This document shows positions 44,820 through 52,992 of a stretch of DNA of 64,000 nt, one piece after another. The notes beneath the pieces were generated by a model. It searched no databases. It was not told the origin of the DNA and saw nothing but the letters and a program-made list of their open reading frames with translations. Where the stretch lies: positions 124,001 through 188,000 of the forward strand of contig NZ_PDWW01000003.1 of the NCBI RefSeq assembly GCF_010093445.1, read 5' to 3'. The position numbers and the translations under genes were made by a program. The stretch is from Pseudoxanthomonas japonensis (lineage in GTDB: Bacteria; Pseudomonadota; Gammaproteobacteria; Xanthomonadales; Xanthomonadaceae). The stretch's first letter is position 1. Each line of letters starts with the position of its first letter.

Positions 44820-44920
44820 GTGGGCTCCCGTGCCGATACCGTTCGGGGGACTGGGGTCGCCCCACCGTGCTGGTCGATGGGCGGGAGCATAACGGACCCC
44901 CCAACCTGGCGGAGCCATGC

Positions 44921-46183
44921 ATGCTGCAGACCGTAAATGTCGCCGACCTCCGGCCGGGCATGTACGTGCAGAAGTTGCTGGGTCCGTGGATGCAGCATCC
45001 GTTCTGGCGCACGTCGTTCCTGCTCGACGACGAACGCATCGCCGAGCTGCAGGACAGCGGGGTTGGGCAGGTGGTGGTGGACCTGTCCCGGAGCGAGCTG
45101 GACGGCGATCGCGACTCACCCGAGGCTCCGACCCCGGACGCGGCAGGACCGGTGCCCGCGCAGCCGGTCGCGATGTCCCCGTCGGCCACGGATACGGATA
45201 AGGATCCGGAGGCCGAGCACCGCCGGGTGATCGTGGCCGACGGCACCGTCAGTCTGGCGTCCGAGATCTCGCGTGCCCGCCGCATCTGCGACGAGGGGCG
45301 CGACGCGGTCGAGGCGATGTTCCGCGAAGTGCGCCTGGGTCGTGGCGTTGACGCCGGCCACGTCAAGCCGCTGCTGGACGAAATCACCGGCTCGGTCGAC
45401 CGTCATCCCACCGCCCTGGTCAGCGTGGCGCGGCTCAAGGACGCCGACAGCTATACCTATCTGCATTCGGTGGCGGTCAGCGCGCTGATGACGATGCTGG
45501 CCCGCCAACTGCAGCTGCCCGATGACCAGGTGCGCGACGCCGCGCTGGGCGGCCTGCTGCACGACATGGGCAAGGCCATGCTGCCGCTGGACGTGCTCAA
45601 CAAGCCCGGCAAGCTGACCGAGGACGAGTTTGCCATCGTCCGCCAGCACCCGGTGCATGGCGAACGGCTGCTGCGGGATGGTGGCATCACCCAGGAGGCG
45701 ATCCTGCACATCGCCCGCCACCATCATGAGAAGGTCAACGGCGCAGGTTATCCACAGCGTCTCTCCGGTACCGAGTTGCCGCTGCTCACCCGCATGAGCA
45801 GCATCTGCGACGTCTACGATGCCATCACCTCCAACCGGCCCTACAAGAACGGCTGGGATCCGGCCGAATCGCTGCGCCGCATGGCCAGTTGGGAGGGGCA
45901 TTTCGACACGACGTTGATGAAGGCGTTCGTCCGGAGCATCGGCATCTATCCGGTCGGCGCCCTGGTGCGGCTGTCCAGCGACCGGCTGGCGGTGGTGGTG
46001 GAGCAGAACCCCGCCACGCTGCTGGCTCCCCGCGTGCGTGTCTTCTACTCGGCCAGGCAGCGCAAGCACGTGCTGATGACCGACCTCGACCTGGCCACCG
46101 CCGGGGACCGCGAACGCATCGTCGGTGTCGAGTCGCCGGAGAAGTGGGGTTTCCGCGACCTGGAGAAGGTCTGGCTGCCGTAA
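44921..46183 (+). CDS. HD-GYP-domain c-di-GMP phosphodiesterase-like protein
   Basis: A 420-aa protein. An N-terminal DUF3391-type domain (VADLRPGMYVQKLLGPWMQHPFW) is followed by a low-complexity linker and an HD-GYP domain. The HD pair is His214-Asp215 (LLHDMGKA). The second motif reads HHEKVNGAGYP at residues 268-278. Asn273 takes the place of Asp in the consensus HHExxDGxGYP. Most metal ligands are intact, so activity is possible. ATG 44921 has GGCGGAG 6 nt upstream, and the frame upstream of it is not credible. c-di-GMP hydrolysis is inferred. Confidence 0.88.
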   Translation: MLQTVNVADLRPGMYVQKLLGPWMQHPFWRTSFLLDDERIAELQDSGVGQVVVDLSRSELDGDRDSPEAPTPDAAGPVPAQPVAMSPSATDTDKDPEAEHRRVIVADGTVSLASEISRARRICDEGRDAVEAMFREVRLGRGVDAGHVKPLLDEITGSVDRHPTALVSVARLKDADSYTYLHSVAVSALMTMLARQLQLPDDQVRDAALGGLLHDMGKAMLPLDVLNKPGKLTEDEFAIVRQHPVHGERLLRDGGITQEAILHIARHHHEKVNGAGYPQRLSGTELPLLTRMSSICDVYDAITSNRPYKNGWDPAESLRRMASWEGHFDTTLMKAFVRSIGIYPVGALVRLSSDRLAVVVEQNPATLLAPRVRVFYSARQRKHVLMTDLDLATAGDRERIVGVESPEKWGFRDLEKVWLP

Positions 46184-47536: not shown

Positions 47537-48052
47537 TCAGGGGGCGGGGGTCGCAGGCCGGTGCGCGTAGCTCAGCACCCTCGTCACCTGCCATTGGCCA
47601 TCGCGTTCGCGCCAGACCATGACGAAATCCGCTTCGCCCGCGCAGTCGGTGCCGCCCAGGTCGCAGAAGCGATGCTTGCCCTGCGCGATCGCGCCGAAAT
47701 CCTTGATCGGGTACACCACCAGCGTGCCCGGCACGCGTTCGCGCCGGTAGTGGCCGCAGACATACTGGCGCGTGCGGCCGATCATCTCGTCGCGCGTCCA
47801 GGTGACCCCGCCGTTATCGTGGTAGAACTCCACCGCGTCGTCGAAGTAGGCGGCGTGCTTCGCCAGTTGCGCCGGATCGGCGCAGGTGTTGAAGGCGTCG
47901 AACACCGCCGTGTCCAGTGCATCGATGGTGTCGGTGAGCTGCTCCGGTGTCCGCTCGGTGGCGGCCGTCGCCTCGACCGCTCCGCACAGCAGCGCGGTAC
48001 CCAGCAGGCCGCCGAAGGCTGCTTTCGCCACGCGCGAACGCACCGCGGTCAT
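47537..48052 (-). CDS. Exported NTF2-like protein
   Basis: 171 aa. The signal peptide ends at EATAA. A DUF4440-like NTF2 fold follows (LDTAVFDAFNTCADPAQLAKHAAYFDDAVEFYHDNGGVTWTRDEMIG; FVMVWRERDGQWQVTRVLSYAH). The start overlaps the stop of the small membrane gene by ATGA (48049-48052), so translation is coupled. Function unknown. Confidence 0.82.
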   Translation of the reverse strand: MTAVRSRVAKAAFGGLLGTALLCGAVEATAATERTPEQLTDTIDALDTAVFDAFNTCADPAQLAKHAAYFDDAVEFYHDNGGVTWTRDEMIGRTRQYVCGHYRRERVPGTLVVYPIKDFGAIAQGKHRFCDLGGTDCAGEADFVMVWRERDGQWQVTRVLSYAHRPATPAP

Positions 48053-48416: not shown

Positions 48417-48887
48417 TCAGGGCTGCGGAGGCAGCAAGGGCGCTTCCGGCGGCGGCGGTCCACGACGCACCACGTCGCGCTGCATCGCCGCCAGCCGGCG
48501 CAGCAGGCGGTTCTGCGTGGCGCGCGGCAGCTGGCGCTGGTCCATCGCCCACATCAGGTCCTCGACCAGCGCATTGAAATCGGCTTCGGCGATGTTCACG
48601 TGCTTGTGCGCCTCGGCCATGTCCTTGCCGGCGTACGAGCAGGGGCCGCCCGACTGCACGCACAGGAACTCCACCAGCCGGTCATTGAGGTTGATGATGT
48701 CGACGTCCTTGAAGTGATGCGCGATGCGGGGATCGTCCGACACACGGAACAGCAAGGTCTCCACCAGCGCCTCGATGCCGGCGCGCCCGCCCAGCCCGTC
48801 GTACAGCGCGTCCTTCGCCGGTGGCGCGGACGCGCAGCCGGCGATCCACAGCAGGCTGGCCAGCAGCAGGGCGGTCGCGATACGCAT
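48417..48887 (-). CDS. Group-1 truncated-hemoglobin-like lipoprotein
   Basis: 156 aa. A lipobox IAGC ends the signal, so it is lipid-anchored outside the cytoplasm. The mature protein begins YDGLGGRAGIEALVETLLFRVSDDPRIAHHF, the signature start of group-1 truncated globins, and has HKHVNIAEADFNALVEDLM, in which the first His is the expected proximal heme ligand. ATG 48887 has GAGGTGA upstream. A Pro-rich tail closes the protein. It is the last gene of the cupredoxin/GGDEF-EAL/DUF3034 operon. Envelope localisation makes it atypical for a truncated globin; heme binding is inferred. Confidence 0.82.
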   Translation of the reverse strand: MRIATALLLASLLWIAGCASAPPAKDALYDGLGGRAGIEALVETLLFRVSDDPRIAHHFKDVDIINLNDRLVEFLCVQSGGPCSYAGKDMAEAHKHVNIAEADFNALVEDLMWAMDQRQLPRATQNRLLRRLAAMQRDVVRRGPPPPEAPLLPPQP

Positions 48888-48897
48888 GCTCGTCACC

Positions 48898-49770
48898 TCA
48901 TAAGCTCAACTGCAAGGACACGTATGCGCCGCGCTGGTCGTCCAGCGTGGCGATACTGCCCAGGTCCGCCCACGCACCGACGACGGCGACGTGCTTGTTC
49001 GGGAACCAGGCGATGAAGACGTCGCGCCAGTCGTCTTCTCTGGCGAAGCCGAGGTTGTCGGGCTTCTGCCGGTATTCCACGCCTACGGCGAGGCGGGGAT
49101 CCAGCAGCACGGCCGCCGATCCTTCCCACAGCCACGTGCGCTCCGCACGCCGGTCGCCGCCGAAGCCCAGCAGGCCGGCCTGGTTGGCGTTGCTCGAACG
49201 CAGGGTCGCATTGAGCAGCAACTGGTAACCGCCGGCGGCATCGAGGAACAGTTTGCTGGCGCTGAGATAGGCATCGGTGCCGTTGTCGTCGCGCGCGCCC
49301 ACCGCCAGCGGCAACGCGCCGTCGCGCAGGCGCTTGTGCTGCACGCCGACGCTGACCTGCGGCATGCGCGTATAGACCAGATCGCCGGCCAGGCGCACCT
49401 TGGCGCCGTAGATGTCCTGCTCCAGCGCATCCCAGGGCAGCGCCAGCCGTCGTTGCAGTTCGCCCAGGTCGAAGGACTGCCGCGCAAACGACACTTCCAC
49501 CCGGTTGGCGAACGTGTACGACGCCCCGAAGGCGTCCAGCGCGTAGTCGCCGGTATCCACGCGCGTGTAGAACGCGGCGCCCCCGTGCTGTTCGTCCGTT
49601 CCGTACCCCGACAGCACGGCCCACGGCACGATGCCGCCGCCGGCCGCACCTTCCACCTGCGTGGCGCCACCGGTCGCCAGCAGGCGGCCCTGTCCGGCGG
49701 AGGCGGGCAGCGCCGGCAGCAGCGCGGACAGGGCGCAGGCGATCGATACGCAACGAAGGGCAGGGGTCAT
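48898..49770 (-). CDS. DUF3034 family outer-membrane-like protein
   Basis: 290 aa. The signal peptide ends at ASAGQ. GRLLATGGATQVEGAAGGGIVPWAVLSGYGT is the family start. Alternating hydrophobic strands through to the C-terminal LQLSL suggest a beta-barrel. DUF3034 is uncharacterised. ATG 49770 overlaps the TGA of the GGDEF-EAL gene (ATGA), and the truncated-globin gene's start lies 10 nt beyond its stop. Tight coupling suggests that the three proteins share a task. Confidence 0.85.
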   Translation of the reverse strand: MTPALRCVSIACALSALLPALPASAGQGRLLATGGATQVEGAAGGGIVPWAVLSGYGTDEQHGGAAFYTRVDTGDYALDAFGASYTFANRVEVSFARQSFDLGELQRRLALPWDALEQDIYGAKVRLAGDLVYTRMPQVSVGVQHKRLRDGALPLAVGARDDNGTDAYLSASKLFLDAAGGYQLLLNATLRSSNANQAGLLGFGGDRRAERTWLWEGSAAVLLDPRLAVGVEYRQKPDNLGFAREDDWRDVFIAWFPNKHVAVVGAWADLGSIATLDDQRGAYVSLQLSL

Positions 49771-52115
49771 GCGTCGGTTTCCAGCGGGAGGTCGGCGGTC
49801 GTCGCGGTGCGCTCGCGCTGGTGGCACCAGTCCAGCAGCGCGGCGCTGCCCAGCGGTGCGCTGAACAGGTAGCCCTGCACCATGTCGCAGCGGTAGTGGC
49901 GCAGCAGGGCCAGTGCGCGGTCGTTCTCCACGCCCTCGGCGATCACCGACAGGCCCATGTTGTGGCCCAGTTCGATGGTGGAGCGCACGATCACCGCGTC
50001 GTCGCTGCCTTCTTCCAGCTGCATCACGAAGCTCTTGTCGATCTTCAGCTCGTCCACCGGCATGCGCTTGAGTTGCGCCAGCGAGGAATAGCCGGTACCG
50101 AAGTCGTCGATCGCCAGCCGCACGCCGCAGGCCTTGAGCCGGTGCAGCATGCGCAGTGCGTACTCGATGTCCTGCATCAGCGCGCTTTCGGTGACCTCCA
50201 GGATCAGGCGCTCCGCCGGGACGCCATGGGCGGCGAGCCGCTGTTCGATGTAGTCCGGCAGGTCCGCATCCAGCAGGTCCATCGCGGACAGGTTCACCGC
50301 CAGCCCCAGGTCCAGTCCGCCCGCGCGCCAGACGGCATGGCAGGCCAGGGCCTGGTCCAGTACGAAGCGCGTCAGTTCGTGGATGAATCCCGAGCGTTCG
50401 GCCAGCGGGATGAACTCGTCCGGCGCCACCGCGCCCAGGGTGGGGTGGCGCCAGCGCAGCAGCGCCTCGACGTGCTGCACGTGCGCGCTGGCGGCATCGA
50501 GCTTGGGCTGGAACTTCAGTTCGAGTTGGCCTCCGGAGATCGCCTGCCGCAGGTCGGTCATCAACTGCAGCTGCCGAAGGTGGGATTCGTCGCGGCCGGG
50601 CTGGTACACCGCCACTCCGCCGTGCGCGGCCTTGGCGTCGTACAGCGCGATGTCGGCCCGTCGCAGCAGTGTGTCGGCATCCGCGCCATGCTCGGGATGG
50701 CAGGCCAGGCCGAAGCTGCCTTCGACGCCAACGCGCGTACTGGGCAGGTCCAGCGGCTGCTTCAACGCATTCCACAGCGCGTGCGCCTGCGCCTGCGCCG
50801 CCTCGCATCGCAGGCCCGGCAGCATCAGCATGAACTCGTCACCGCCCAGGCGGGCGACCAGATGGGCGTCATCCGACGCGCTGCGCAGCCGCTGCGCGAC
50901 TTCGCGCAGGACCTGGTCGCCGAATTCGTGGCCCAGCGTGTCGTTGATCTCCTTGAAGCGGTTCACGTCCATGACCAGTACCGCCACGTCGCCGCCACGG
51001 GCGATCGCCGCCTGCAGCAGGTCGTAGGCATGGCTGCGGTTGGGCAGCCCGGTCAGGCCGTCGTGATGGGCCTGGTGCAGGATGCGCGCTTCGCGCGCGG
51101 CGATGTCCGCCTGCATGCGGCCGAACGCACCGGCAAGCTCGGCGATTTCGCGACTGCCGCCGGCGACCGGCGCCTGCGAGTAATCGCCGGCCTGGATGCG
51201 CTGCGCCGCCGTGGCCAGTCGCGACACCGGTCGGCTGATGCCGCGACCCAGGGCAACGGCGACGGCAACCGCGAGCAGGGCCGCAAGCCCGGACAGCAGC
51301 AGGATGCGCGAACGCAACGCGCGGTAGGGCGCCAGCGCTCGGTCGTACGAATCCAGCAACACCAGCCGTGCGTCGTCGCCCTCGGTGAGCGGATGCGAGT
51401 CGGAGAGGTAATGGTCGCTGCCGACGGCAATCGGGCGCGTGTGGTCGCCCTGCGGCGTCCAGGCGCTCGCAAAGGACGCGCGCTGTGCGGCGGGCAACGT
51501 GGAGGCATGCACGCGCGTCCGGGAGCCGGCGCTGGTGACGAAGGCGGCTTCCAGTCCGGTCAGGCGCTGGTACTCGCGCGCCACCGCATCGTCGTAGCGA
51601 CGGCCTATGGCCAGCCAGCCCACCCGCTCCGGCGCCATGACCGGCAACATCACCACCAGGTAAAGGGCGTCATTCACGACGACCGTCTGCAAGGCCAGCC
51701 CGTCGCGGGCGGCCTGGCGCGTGAGACCGGCCAGCACCTCCGCCGACGGCGCCGCGGCGCCCTCGGCGCCGGCCTGCCAGCGGCCGTCGCGATCCAGCAG
51801 CCAGGCCAGGTCGGCGCCCACACGGGTGCCCTGGTTGCCCAGCGCCGAACGCAGTGTCGGCACATCGCCACTGGCCACCGCCGCACGGAAACCGAAATCG
51901 TCCGACAGCACCGACGCCGACGCGAGCAGCTGTTCCGAGCGGCTCTGCTGGAACTGTTCCCACACGCGCTGGCCCACGTGCAGCTCCTGTTCCAGCCGCG
52001 ACGACACCGCGCGCTGCGTGGCCACCGTCACCACCGCGAACGTGGCCAGCTGCGCGGCCACCACCACGGCGATCATCACGGCGATGACGCGCGTCTGGAA
52101 ACTGCGTGGCTTCAA
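49767..52115 (-). CDS. Membrane GGDEF-EAL protein
   Basis: 782 aa. A transmembrane helix (10-34), a roughly 235-residue periplasmic sensor domain (Cache-like) and a second helix (271-289) precede HAMP, GGDEF and EAL domains. The active-site GGDEF is intact (RLGGDEFM, 424-428). The EAL domain keeps Glu550-Ala-Leu, DDFGTGYSS, and KIDKSF. The protein could make or break c-di-GMP; both domains look catalytically competent. TGA of the cupredoxin gene overlaps its ATG, and its own TGA overlaps the DUF3034 ATG. The periplasmic sensor may read the state of the copper protein encoded just upstream. That link is inference. Confidence 0.93.
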   Translation of the reverse strand: MKPRSFQTRVIAVMIAVVVAAQLATFAVVTVATQRAVSSRLEQELHVGQRVWEQFQQSRSEQLLASASVLSDDFGFRAAVASGDVPTLRSALGNQGTRVGADLAWLLDRDGRWQAGAEGAAAPSAEVLAGLTRQAARDGLALQTVVVNDALYLVVMLPVMAPERVGWLAIGRRYDDAVAREYQRLTGLEAAFVTSAGSRTRVHASTLPAAQRASFASAWTPQGDHTRPIAVGSDHYLSDSHPLTEGDDARLVLLDSYDRALAPYRALRSRILLLSGLAALLAVAVAVALGRGISRPVSRLATAAQRIQAGDYSQAPVAGGSREIAELAGAFGRMQADIAAREARILHQAHHDGLTGLPNRSHAYDLLQAAIARGGDVAVLVMDVNRFKEINDTLGHEFGDQVLREVAQRLRSASDDAHLVARLGGDEFMLMLPGLRCEAAQAQAHALWNALKQPLDLPSTRVGVEGSFGLACHPEHGADADTLLRRADIALYDAKAAHGGVAVYQPGRDESHLRQLQLMTDLRQAISGGQLELKFQPKLDAASAHVQHVEALLRWRHPTLGAVAPDEFIPLAERSGFIHELTRFVLDQALACHAVWRAGGLDLGLAVNLSAMDLLDADLPDYIEQRLAAHGVPAERLILEVTESALMQDIEYALRMLHRLKACGVRLAIDDFGTGYSSLAQLKRMPVDELKIDKSFVMQLEEGSDDAVIVRSTIELGHNMGLSVIAEGVENDRALALLRHYRCDMVQGYLFSAPLGSAALLDWCHQRERTATTADLPLETDA

Positions 52116-52795
52116 GGGGTGCCGCCCTTGGTCTGGCGGAACTTCTCCTGCAGCGCGCGCAGGCGGTCAGTGCCACGTACGTCGTTCTTCGCCGGGACCA
52201 GCGCGATCTGCAACGTCGACGAGGCACCGGCGGCCGGCACCACCAGCGTGCGTTCCAGCGGTGCACCCTCGCCGCGCACGTGCCACACCCGCAGCGTGTA
52301 GCTTCCCGGCGGCACGTCGAGGGTCAGGTGGCCATCGGCGGCGGTCTTGCCGAAGTAGGGCGTGTCCAGCACCACGATGTGGCCGATCATCCAGTCGTGG
52401 ATGTTGCAGCCCACCACCACCACGCCCGGCTTGTCGAAGCGGATGGGCGCGGCCTTGTTGCCGGAATACAGCGGAATCTCGAACTGGCGTGGCTGCGAGA
52501 ACGAGTAGACGTGATGCTGGATGTTGTCGCGGTTGGGGAAGGCGACCACCGTGCCGGCCTGCACCGGCAGCACACCGGGCACGAAGGCCGAATGCTGCTG
52601 ATCCATGCGCGCGGTGGCGCTGCGGGTGGTCGACGGCGTCGCGCCGTGCAGGCTGACCACGGCATCGGCGACCGGGCCGCTGCTGCTGCCCACGGCGAGG
52701 CGCACCTCCGCCGCATGCGCAGCCGACCCGATGGCCATCGACAGCAGCACTCCAGACCACGCCCGCCCCACGCGCCGCCGTACCCGCATCGTCAT
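52112..52795 (-). CDS. Exported cupredoxin-like (methylamine-utilisation-type) protein
   Basis: 227 aa. The signal peptide ends at AAHAAE. A CARDB/carboxypeptidase-regulatory-like N-terminal half precedes the cupredoxin site: QHHVYSF (His95) and VGCNIHDWMIGH with Cys130, His133 and Met136, the four ligands of a type-1 copper centre. A PEGA-like beta-sandwich follows (GHLTLDVPPGSYTLRVWH). ATG 52795 is chosen; a second ATG (52789) is in frame. Its TGA overlaps the start of the GGDEF-EAL gene. Copper binding is inferred from the ligands; electron transfer or sensing is possible. Confidence 0.82.
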   Translation of the reverse strand: MTMRVRRRVGRAWSGVLLSMAIGSAAHAAEVRLAVGSSSGPVADAVVSLHGATPSTTRSATARMDQQHSAFVPGVLPVQAGTVVAFPNRDNIQHHVYSFSQPRQFEIPLYSGNKAAPIRFDKPGVVVVGCNIHDWMIGHIVVLDTPYFGKTAADGHLTLDVPPGSYTLRVWHVRGEGAPLERTLVVPAAGASSTLQIALVPAKNDVRGTDRLRALQEKFRQTKGGTP

Positions 52796-52992
52796 CCCCT
52801 GTCCAATCAGGTAATTCCAGCAAGACCCGTGCCATCCCCGCGATCCCCCGACGCGACGATCGCGGGCATGAGGCATGCGTGTTCCGTTCCTGCGGGACTG
52901 CCGGACTGGGCTGAAACTGACGTTACGCGTCATGGAGGCGGATGGATGCGGTGGCCGCAACCAGTGCCGTCGTACGGGCCGCGATGCCGGGA

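Follow-up and report, generated by a model that had tools for sequence, protein, structure and literature searches.

The four-gene locus

Within a 64,000-nt stretch of the Pseudoxanthomonas japonensis contig NZ_PDWW01000003.1 (hereinafter the window, which denotes the whole of that stretch), positions 48417–52795 hold four genes stacked on the minus strand. In order, these code for an exported cupredoxin (hereinafter CUP; 52112–52795, 227 residues), a membrane sensor enzyme with a dCache_3-HAMP-GGDEF-EAL architecture (49767–52115, 782 residues), a DUF3034 (PF11231) protein predicted to form a 12-strand outer-membrane β-barrel (48898–49770, 290 residues), and a group-1 truncated globin lipoprotein (TrHb; 48417–48887, 156 residues). 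The open reading frames (ORFs) lie where a first-pass annotation, made from the sequence alone, had placed them, as does the 10-nt gap ahead of the globin gene. That annotation also described two ATGA overlaps: the one between the enzyme and DUF3034 genes (49767–49770) stands, while that between the CUP and enzyme genes (52112–52115) reads TTGA, the start of the second gene being TTG. An in-frame GTG lies 9 nt upstream of the globin ATG at 48887.

Domains and conserved residues of the four proteins

CUP opens with a signal-like N-terminal stretch (judged by eye), in keeping with its earlier description as an exported protein, which is followed by a type-1 copper domain, a CarboxypepD_reg-like immunoglobulin (Ig) domain and a C-terminal helix. 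Its AlphaFold2 model (pLDDT 89.5) consists entirely of strands apart from the N-terminal and C-terminal helices, with pseudoazurin, amicyanin and plastocyanin as the top Foldseek hits (E from about 3e-6 to 1e-4 among the matches listed). Cys130, His133 and Met136 are each conserved in 103/103 distinct homologues, and His94 (codon 52514–52516) in 102, the remaining one (L056) having a gap there. The first reading of the copper site had the same Cys, His and Met but took His95 as the fourth ligand; position 95 is His in only 43 of the 103, and the ligand is instead His94. With two His, a Cys and an axial Met set in a cupredoxin fold, CUP is by sequence and model a predicted type-1 cupredoxin. 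Cupredoxins are known as electron carriers, of which the type-1 copper site is typical. CUP shares its fold with amicyanin, pseudoazurin and plastocyanin, and its Cys-x2-His-x2-Met spacing is, we presume, that of amicyanin; unlike the amicyanin-type cupredoxins, it has an extra C-terminal Ig-like domain and helix, as well as signalling partners. The amicyanin label proper (TIGR02657) was rejected, as CUP scores 20.1 bits against a cut-off of 110.2.

The enzyme shows four Pfam domains above their cut-offs, namely a dCache_3-like domain at about residues 39–255 (59.6 bits versus 25.7), HAMP at 289–337, GGDEF at 349–498 and EAL at 521–754. Across 100 distinct homologues (of 103 aligned rows, one of them a fragment), the EAL residues E550, N608, E643, D670, D671, K691 and E727, which we take to be catalytic, are invariant, and only 18 have an intact GGDEF motif. 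Thus, the initial observation that both motifs are intact is right for the window protein, and does not extend to GGDEF as a conserved activity. This disparity indicates, at the level of sequence, that the conserved output is cyclic di-GMP (c-di-GMP) breakdown rather than balanced synthesis and breakdown. The periplasmic region of the sensor has no conserved Cys, with 93/100 homologues lacking Cys there altogether; its best-conserved His (79/100) is Gln95 in the window protein, and a Met found in 65/100 is Ile170. Metal binding as a general feature of the sensor domain was rejected on these grounds, and with neither a conserved Cys nor a well-conserved His shared by the window protein, the copper and haem chemistry is most likely to reside in the partner proteins.

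The DUF3034 protein matches its Pfam family at 382 bits and was earlier noted as barrel-like, a description that its AlphaFold2 model bears out: this has 12 strands (mean pLDDT 79.6, with much of residues 23–55 below 50) and resembles solved outer-membrane barrels. At E 0.001 or better, a Foldseek search with it recovered 136 matches in the PDB; nearly all of the best 50 are outer-membrane barrels, with FapF (E 2.3e-7; template modelling (TM) score 0.46 by query), Omp33, OmpG, NanC and KdgM (TM 0.49 by query, 0.80 by target) among the folds matched. Sequence identity to barrels of the FapF, OmpG and KdgM type is about 10%, and DUF3034 is set apart by its 12 predicted strands and a strongly conserved, glycine-rich N-terminal segment. 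The chain ends in F, Y or W in 103/119 homologues.

The fourth protein had been recognized as a lipoprotein that starts like a group-1 truncated globin. Its lipobox Cys18 stands, and the similarity extends well beyond the start, with a full globin domain (Bac_globin, PF01152; 61 bits versus a cut-off of 21) spanning residues 28–139 of the 156. Among 115 distinct homologues (of 118 sequences), the F8 His94 is invariant and the CD1 Phe is present in 114; the former makes a haem-less globin, against which the first-pass annotation had cautioned, appear unlikely rather than impossible. Cys76 and Cys83 are each found in 114/115 and are lost together in a single sequence (L089), and therefore probably form a disulfide in the oxidising periplasm. 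The lipobox Cys is retained at the Cys18 column in 101/115 distinct sequences (104/118 rows), and at least one (L064) of the 14 rows without it has a lipobox further upstream.

The top PDB matches of the globin include Shewanella benthica HbN (8ugz, E 7.4e-16), a TrHbN-2 protein, along with near-identical-looking chains, the best at E 1.1e-16. We used an ungapped alignment to this protein to map the distal B10, E7 and E11 sites, with positions from PMC11904497. In the window globin these are Leu46, Leu67 and Leu71, and they are apolar in 114, 115 and 115 of the 115 sequences, respectively. The two proteins thus share the F8 His and the apolar B10, E7 and E11; in contrast to the S. benthica protein, whose two cysteines are too distant for a disulfide (PMC11904497), the cluster globins are exported, mostly lipobox-bearing and have the conserved Cys76/Cys83 pair. 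Assignment to TrHbN-1, the NO dioxygenase type with high O2 affinity, was rejected, as its polar TyrB10/GlnE7/GlnE11 network is absent, with these sites apolar in at least 114/115. Apolar distal pockets have been tied to low O2 affinity (PMC11904497), and such a pocket would argue against a high-affinity O2 enzyme and be consistent with sensing of NO or CO, or of O2 with low affinity. E10 is Lys in 54/115 and Arg in 19/115 (Arg70 in the window); a ligand from this position can give a hexacoordinate haem, easing electron transfer (PMC11904497).

Phyletic spread and gene order

We surveyed 398 genomes sampled evenly from the phylum of the window (its own genome counted), with 14 control genomes, and added the best 80 of 563 confirmed DUF3034 matches in named genomes, a set biased to near relatives. 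Together these comprise 119 DUF3034 loci, with at least three species present in both sets. Presence was called at 100 bits or more for CUP, E 1e-10 or better for the sensor domain (the first 285 residues of the window enzyme) and 144 bits or more for the globin of the module; the sensor, CUP and globin profiles were trained mostly or wholly on linked loci. DUF3034 is present in 39/398 genomes of the phylum, from 28/212 genera, and in none of the 14 controls. The module globin is found in 41 genomes, the next match scoring only 97 bits, and these include all 39 with DUF3034. Among the 39, CUP is present in 38, the sensor domain in 37 and all four families in 37; at these thresholds one genome (G078) lacks both CUP and sensor and another (G019) lacks the sensor.

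All four genes occur at a single locus in 30 of the 39 genomes: 23, the window included, have the order seen in the window, six have CUP-enzyme divergent from DUF3034-globin (all six outside the class of the window), and one has the order DUF3034-globin-CUP-enzyme. Partial loci comprise CUP-DUF3034-globin (one genome), DUF3034-globin-CUP (two) and enzyme-DUF3034-globin (one), and in five genomes DUF3034-globin has neither CUP nor enzyme nearby. Across both sets, the globin follows DUF3034 on the same strand in 118/119 loci, the exception (L070) being a decayed second copy in G078, and 95/119 show the full window order, including two (L119 and L142) with a second enzyme gene downstream. The named set, i.e., the best 80 of 563, spans Xanthomonas, many Pseudomonas, Dyella, Rheinheimera and one acidobacterial metagenome-assembled genome, its closest match being Pseudoxanthomonas sp. 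PXM01 at 90%. Hence, the check on conservation of gene order suggested in the first pass finds co-occurrence reaching far beyond close relatives, and chance adjacency of the four genes is rejected on the survey and locus counts. The Fisher p-values are minute but take no account of common descent and come from profiles whose training set was linked loci; we therefore rely on the counts. The distance matrices of five protein segments are also alike (r 0.84–0.90 over 59 culled rows of 103, with 0/500 permutations as high), pointing to co-inheritance, in which interaction and vertical descent are not separated.

DUF3034 further occurs in 13 plasmid records. Of three that were examined, one Caballeronia and one Novosphingobium plasmid carry all four genes. 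In the third, the Caballeronia sp. SBC1 plasmid (L193), DUF3034-globin-CUP precedes a short protein named 'cache domain-containing protein', whose annotation lists no GGDEF-EAL and which looks like a truncated enzyme. The names that annotation attaches to the genes of the cluster are 'methylamine utilization protein' or 'carboxypeptidase regulatory-like', 'EAL domain-containing', 'DUF3034 family' and 'group 1 truncated hemoglobin'.

Some loci show rearranged or duplicated enzyme genes. In Xanthomonas phaseoli (L080:4628-7870), the enzyme and DUF3034 matches lie in a single stop-free frame, an apparent gene fusion. A second sensor-enzyme-like gene precedes CUP on the same strand in L032, L033, L039, L114, L121, L127, L128, L130, L132 and L136–L138, such that CUP lies between two enzymes in these twelve loci. 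One of them, from Pseudomonas lactucae (L127:4522-6937), has the cluster enzyme split over three ORFs, with an intact paralogue upstream of CUP.

The cupredoxin-sensor pair beyond DUF3034

The CUP profile also matched genomes without DUF3034, and 30 further loci were added to the analysis, two of them for their globins without DUF3034. Away from the DUF3034 loci, 17 sensor proteins beside CUP were scanned. In 13 of these the sensor is joined to GGDEF and EAL domains; the other four have a class III nucleotide cyclase domain (Guanylate_cyc; L173 and L174, the latter assigned by exclusion, its gene being cut by the contig end), a Ser/Thr kinase (L161) or a hybrid histidine kinase (L187). Outside the 17, a further hybrid kinase beside CUP (L188) gives a weaker match. 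The sensor-profile scores of these proteins are 244 (L173), 198 (L174), 59 (L161), 59 (L187) and 31 bits (L188). In one DUF3034 locus (L061:2455-5044, from G019, the genome without a sensor match), DUF3034-globin-CUP is followed by an extracytoplasmic function (ECF) sigma factor and an RskA-type anti-sigma factor, where a transcriptional output apparently replaces c-di-GMP.

Sensor matches of at least 180 bits in the 398 genomes (n=49) have CUP upstream on the same strand within 1.5 kb in 44 cases and within 300 nt in 43, with the second sensors of G237 and G344 lying on the other side of a CUP; weaker sensor matches have CUP in 4/11. Conversely, a sensor lies downstream of 48/58 CUP matches of at least 100 bits and of 0/12 weaker ones. 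These fractions are upper estimates, as the profiles were built mostly from linked loci; the fusion of the sensor to unrelated outputs is independent of this bias.

Other barrel-like proteins also adjoin the pair. An exported protein of 410 residues follows CUP-enzyme in eight loci, six of them in genomes without DUF3034 and two (L176 and L184) in genomes with DUF3034 elsewhere; it directly follows CUP in four (L165, L172, L182 and L183) and is divergent from CUP in one (L190). Its profile was built from nine of these 13 loci, and the remaining four (L169, L176, L184 and L190) were found by the profile. Six such proteins were scanned, giving weak porin matches that fall below the cut-off in four and none in two. 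The two cyclase loci and L186 have another exported barrel-like protein upstream (judged by eye). Since output domain and barrel partner are swapped while CUP and sensor are kept, the latter two look like a reusable input pair.

A proposed envelope-spanning sensor and its alternatives

We posit, with moderate confidence, that the four genes constitute an envelope-spanning redox or gas sensor that controls a c-di-GMP phosphodiesterase. The computed linkage, co-occurrence, conserved metal and haem ligands, conserved EAL catalytic residues, predicted folds and retained CUP-sensor pair support this architecture well. The recurrence of one copper protein and one sensor domain across four kinds of fused output and several barrel-like proteins is most simply read as a receptor pair, with the barrel and haem protein as the outer input. 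DUF3034 would be the outer-membrane barrel, and the globin would reside with it on the periplasmic side, having a lipobox in most homologues and, in the rest, apparently being exported in spite of its absence. The globin would bind a gas or change its redox state; the dCache-like domain of the enzyme would receive this redox state, or copper status, by way of the periplasmic cupredoxin; and HAMP would relay it to the EAL phosphodiesterase, such that cellular c-di-GMP is lowered or released. Here we infer that the proteins are in contact, that the globin binds haem in vivo, what kind of stimulus is sensed, and that the relay runs from barrel and globin through cupredoxin to sensor. The first-pass annotation had proposed that the GGDEF-EAL sensor reads a redox or gas signal from the periplasm; the wide linkage, the pairing of CUP and sensor even where DUF3034 and globin are missing, and the swapping of outputs around a kept input pair fit that proposal well, which has to be amended in that the conserved output is hydrolysis.

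More tentatively, and as a version that could well be wrong, we suggest a trans-envelope redox receptor, in which DUF3034 and the lipid-anchored globin together make up a haem receptor in the outer membrane. This receptor would respond to an oxidant, reductant or gas of external origin and hand a single electron to the cupredoxin; the latter, as Cu(I) or Cu(II), would dock on and switch the dCache-like domain. The blue copper protein would then be a messenger rather than a respiratory carrier, and cupredoxin and sensor a general plug-in input for c-di-GMP, cyclase, Ser/Thr-kinase and histidine-kinase outputs; in one cluster the place of the enzyme is taken by an ECF sigma/anti-sigma pair.

Among known systems, a type XI secretion pair was rejected, as this requires a DUF560 barrel adjacent to a lipoprotein that it exports as cargo, whereas the sole Pfam family of the barrel here is DUF3034. 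In the NspS-MbaA system, a periplasmic protein encoded beside a membrane GGDEF-EAL enzyme sets its activity; NspS, however, is a polyamine solute-binding protein, whereas the partner in the window cluster is a type-1 copper protein, accompanied by a barrel and a globin. The nearest described architecture is YfiBNR, made up of YfiR, the OmpA-like YfiB and an inner-membrane diguanylate cyclase. In this tripartite system, periplasmic signals act on c-di-GMP through an outer-membrane lipoprotein and the partner of that lipoprotein (PMC4655355); the cluster differs in its cupredoxin, globin and barrel inputs and its conserved phosphodiesterase output, and membership was rejected as Pfam finds no YfiR or OmpA-like domain in the four window proteins. 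For the trans-envelope redox receptor, the nearest precedent is Cyc2-rusticyanin, where an outer-membrane haem protein passes electrons to a periplasmic cupredoxin (PMC9592645); that chain, however, is respiratory and ends in an oxidase, and its haem protein is a cytochrome and not a globin.

In the accessible parts of the open-licence literature we found no description of the four-gene cluster (including PMC3770913, PMC1592074, PMC8055020, PMC7019866, PMC8832773, PMC6515357 and PMC11102522) and no cupredoxin as a dedicated partner of signalling receptors. The only two papers there that contain DUF3034 name it in passing: in one it seems to stand in error for DUF3037, and in the other it is listed in a table for a membrane protein of Streptomyces (PMC12548924, PMC4255298). 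If true, our proposal would explain the protein annotated as 'methylamine utilization protein', offer a first testable role for DUF3034 and the exported globin clade, and connect c-di-GMP with redox or gas chemistry outside the cell in Pseudomonas, Xanthomonas and relatives, Caballeronia and Novosphingobium; as outputs are swapped behind a single input pair, chimeric receptors could put the idea to the test.

Several observations weigh against a single envelope-spanning sensor. Its chief weakness is that seven loci, with both flanks available, hold DUF3034-globin without CUP or enzyme nearby, so that this pair may have a job beyond signalling. Five of them are from genomes covered by the search, namely four (G213, G225, G261 and G389) with CUP-sensor elsewhere and G078, which has neither at the thresholds used; the other two loci are L110 and L141. 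In G213, CUP-sensor adjoins its own 410-residue barrel-like protein and may for this reason not serve DUF3034. Two genomes (G154 and G328; L162:5061-5654 and L163:5252-5695) have the globin without DUF3034. Ten of the 58 CUP matches of at least 100 bits have no sensor downstream; four of these run directly into the 410-residue protein and another (G233) is cut by the contig end. The training of profiles on linked loci inflates the adjacency and sharpens the gap in globin scores. As to the barrel, the TM scores of the DUF3034 model are modest (0.31–0.55 by query length for the best 50 of 136), residues 23–55 are mostly of low confidence, and the C-terminal residue of the window protein is Leu. 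Finally, across the 107 regions upstream of CUP, the FNR/Anr box is found in none even with one mismatch allowed (shuffled mean 0.5), and FleQ-like, CueR-like and NsrR-like motifs occur in only 5, 3 and 5, respectively, at loose thresholds and with no shuffled control.

Alternatively, DUF3034 and the globin could be an independent unit, an outer-membrane channel with a globin handling NO, O2 or peroxide, with CUP-GGDEF-EAL a separate regulator that shares its conditions. Besides the seven lone loci, the halves are divergent in six loci and unlinked in the four genomes named above, other barrel-like proteins accompany CUP-sensor at other places, and DUF3034 is the most conserved protein (mean column identity 54% (A1) versus 35, 35 and 31% (A2, A3 and A5), the row sets differing). 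Nevertheless, CUP and sensor are kept in 37 of the 39 DUF3034 genomes, and CUP adjoins barrel-like proteins as well as sensors, thereby joining the halves; we consider the independent units rather unlikely.

It is quite improbable, in our assessment, that copper status itself is the signal, with CUP sensing periplasmic copper, DUF3034 a copper-related channel and the globin auxiliary. The near-invariant type-1 ligand set and cupredoxin fold would suit this, but such a site is typical of electron carriers, the F8 His of the globin is never lost among the distinct sequences, CueR-like motifs are as sparse as noted above (a count with no shuffled control), and the annotated neighbours at three plasmid loci, examined out of the 13 records, include no named copper exporter or regulator. 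The least probable is a periplasmic electron-transfer or detoxification chain in which the cupredoxin reduces the globin and the GGDEF-EAL protein is a passenger: the frequent Lys or Arg at E10, where a ligand can give the hexacoordinate haem described above (PMC11904497), the periplasmic truncated-globin domains of cable bacteria, which are fused to multihaem cytochromes and for which a terminal-oxidase role has been proposed (PMC11976967), and MauG-like di-haem proteins between CUP and kinase in L187 and before a weak-match CUP in L166 are in its favour, but most DUF3034 genomes have the enzyme in the cluster, its EAL residues are intact in every distinct homologue, and CUP pairs with other signalling outputs where the globin is absent.

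Upstream elements and neighbouring genes

In the window, a sigma-54-like promoter with a perfect match (TGGCAC-N5-TTGCT; 52819–52834, minus strand) lies 39 nt upstream of CUP. When one mismatch is allowed, sites occur in 5 of the 107 upstream regions, the window included, compared with 0.3 on average and 3 at most in shuffles; the other four, each with one mismatch, lie 29–69 nt upstream in L071, L072, L084 and L140, and the element is thus not general. A scan for sigma-70 promoters and terminators gave no signal above shuffles, and Rfam and tRNA scans of the window returned no matches.

Of the neighbouring genes, an ORF on the plus strand at 44867–46183, 2.2 kb from the end of the cluster, presumably codes for an HD-GYP c-di-GMP phosphodiesterase, as which it reads. 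Downstream of the globin gene, at 47540–48052 on the minus strand, lies a gene for an exported DUF4440 protein, which among the other scanned loci is found beside the cluster only in L071.

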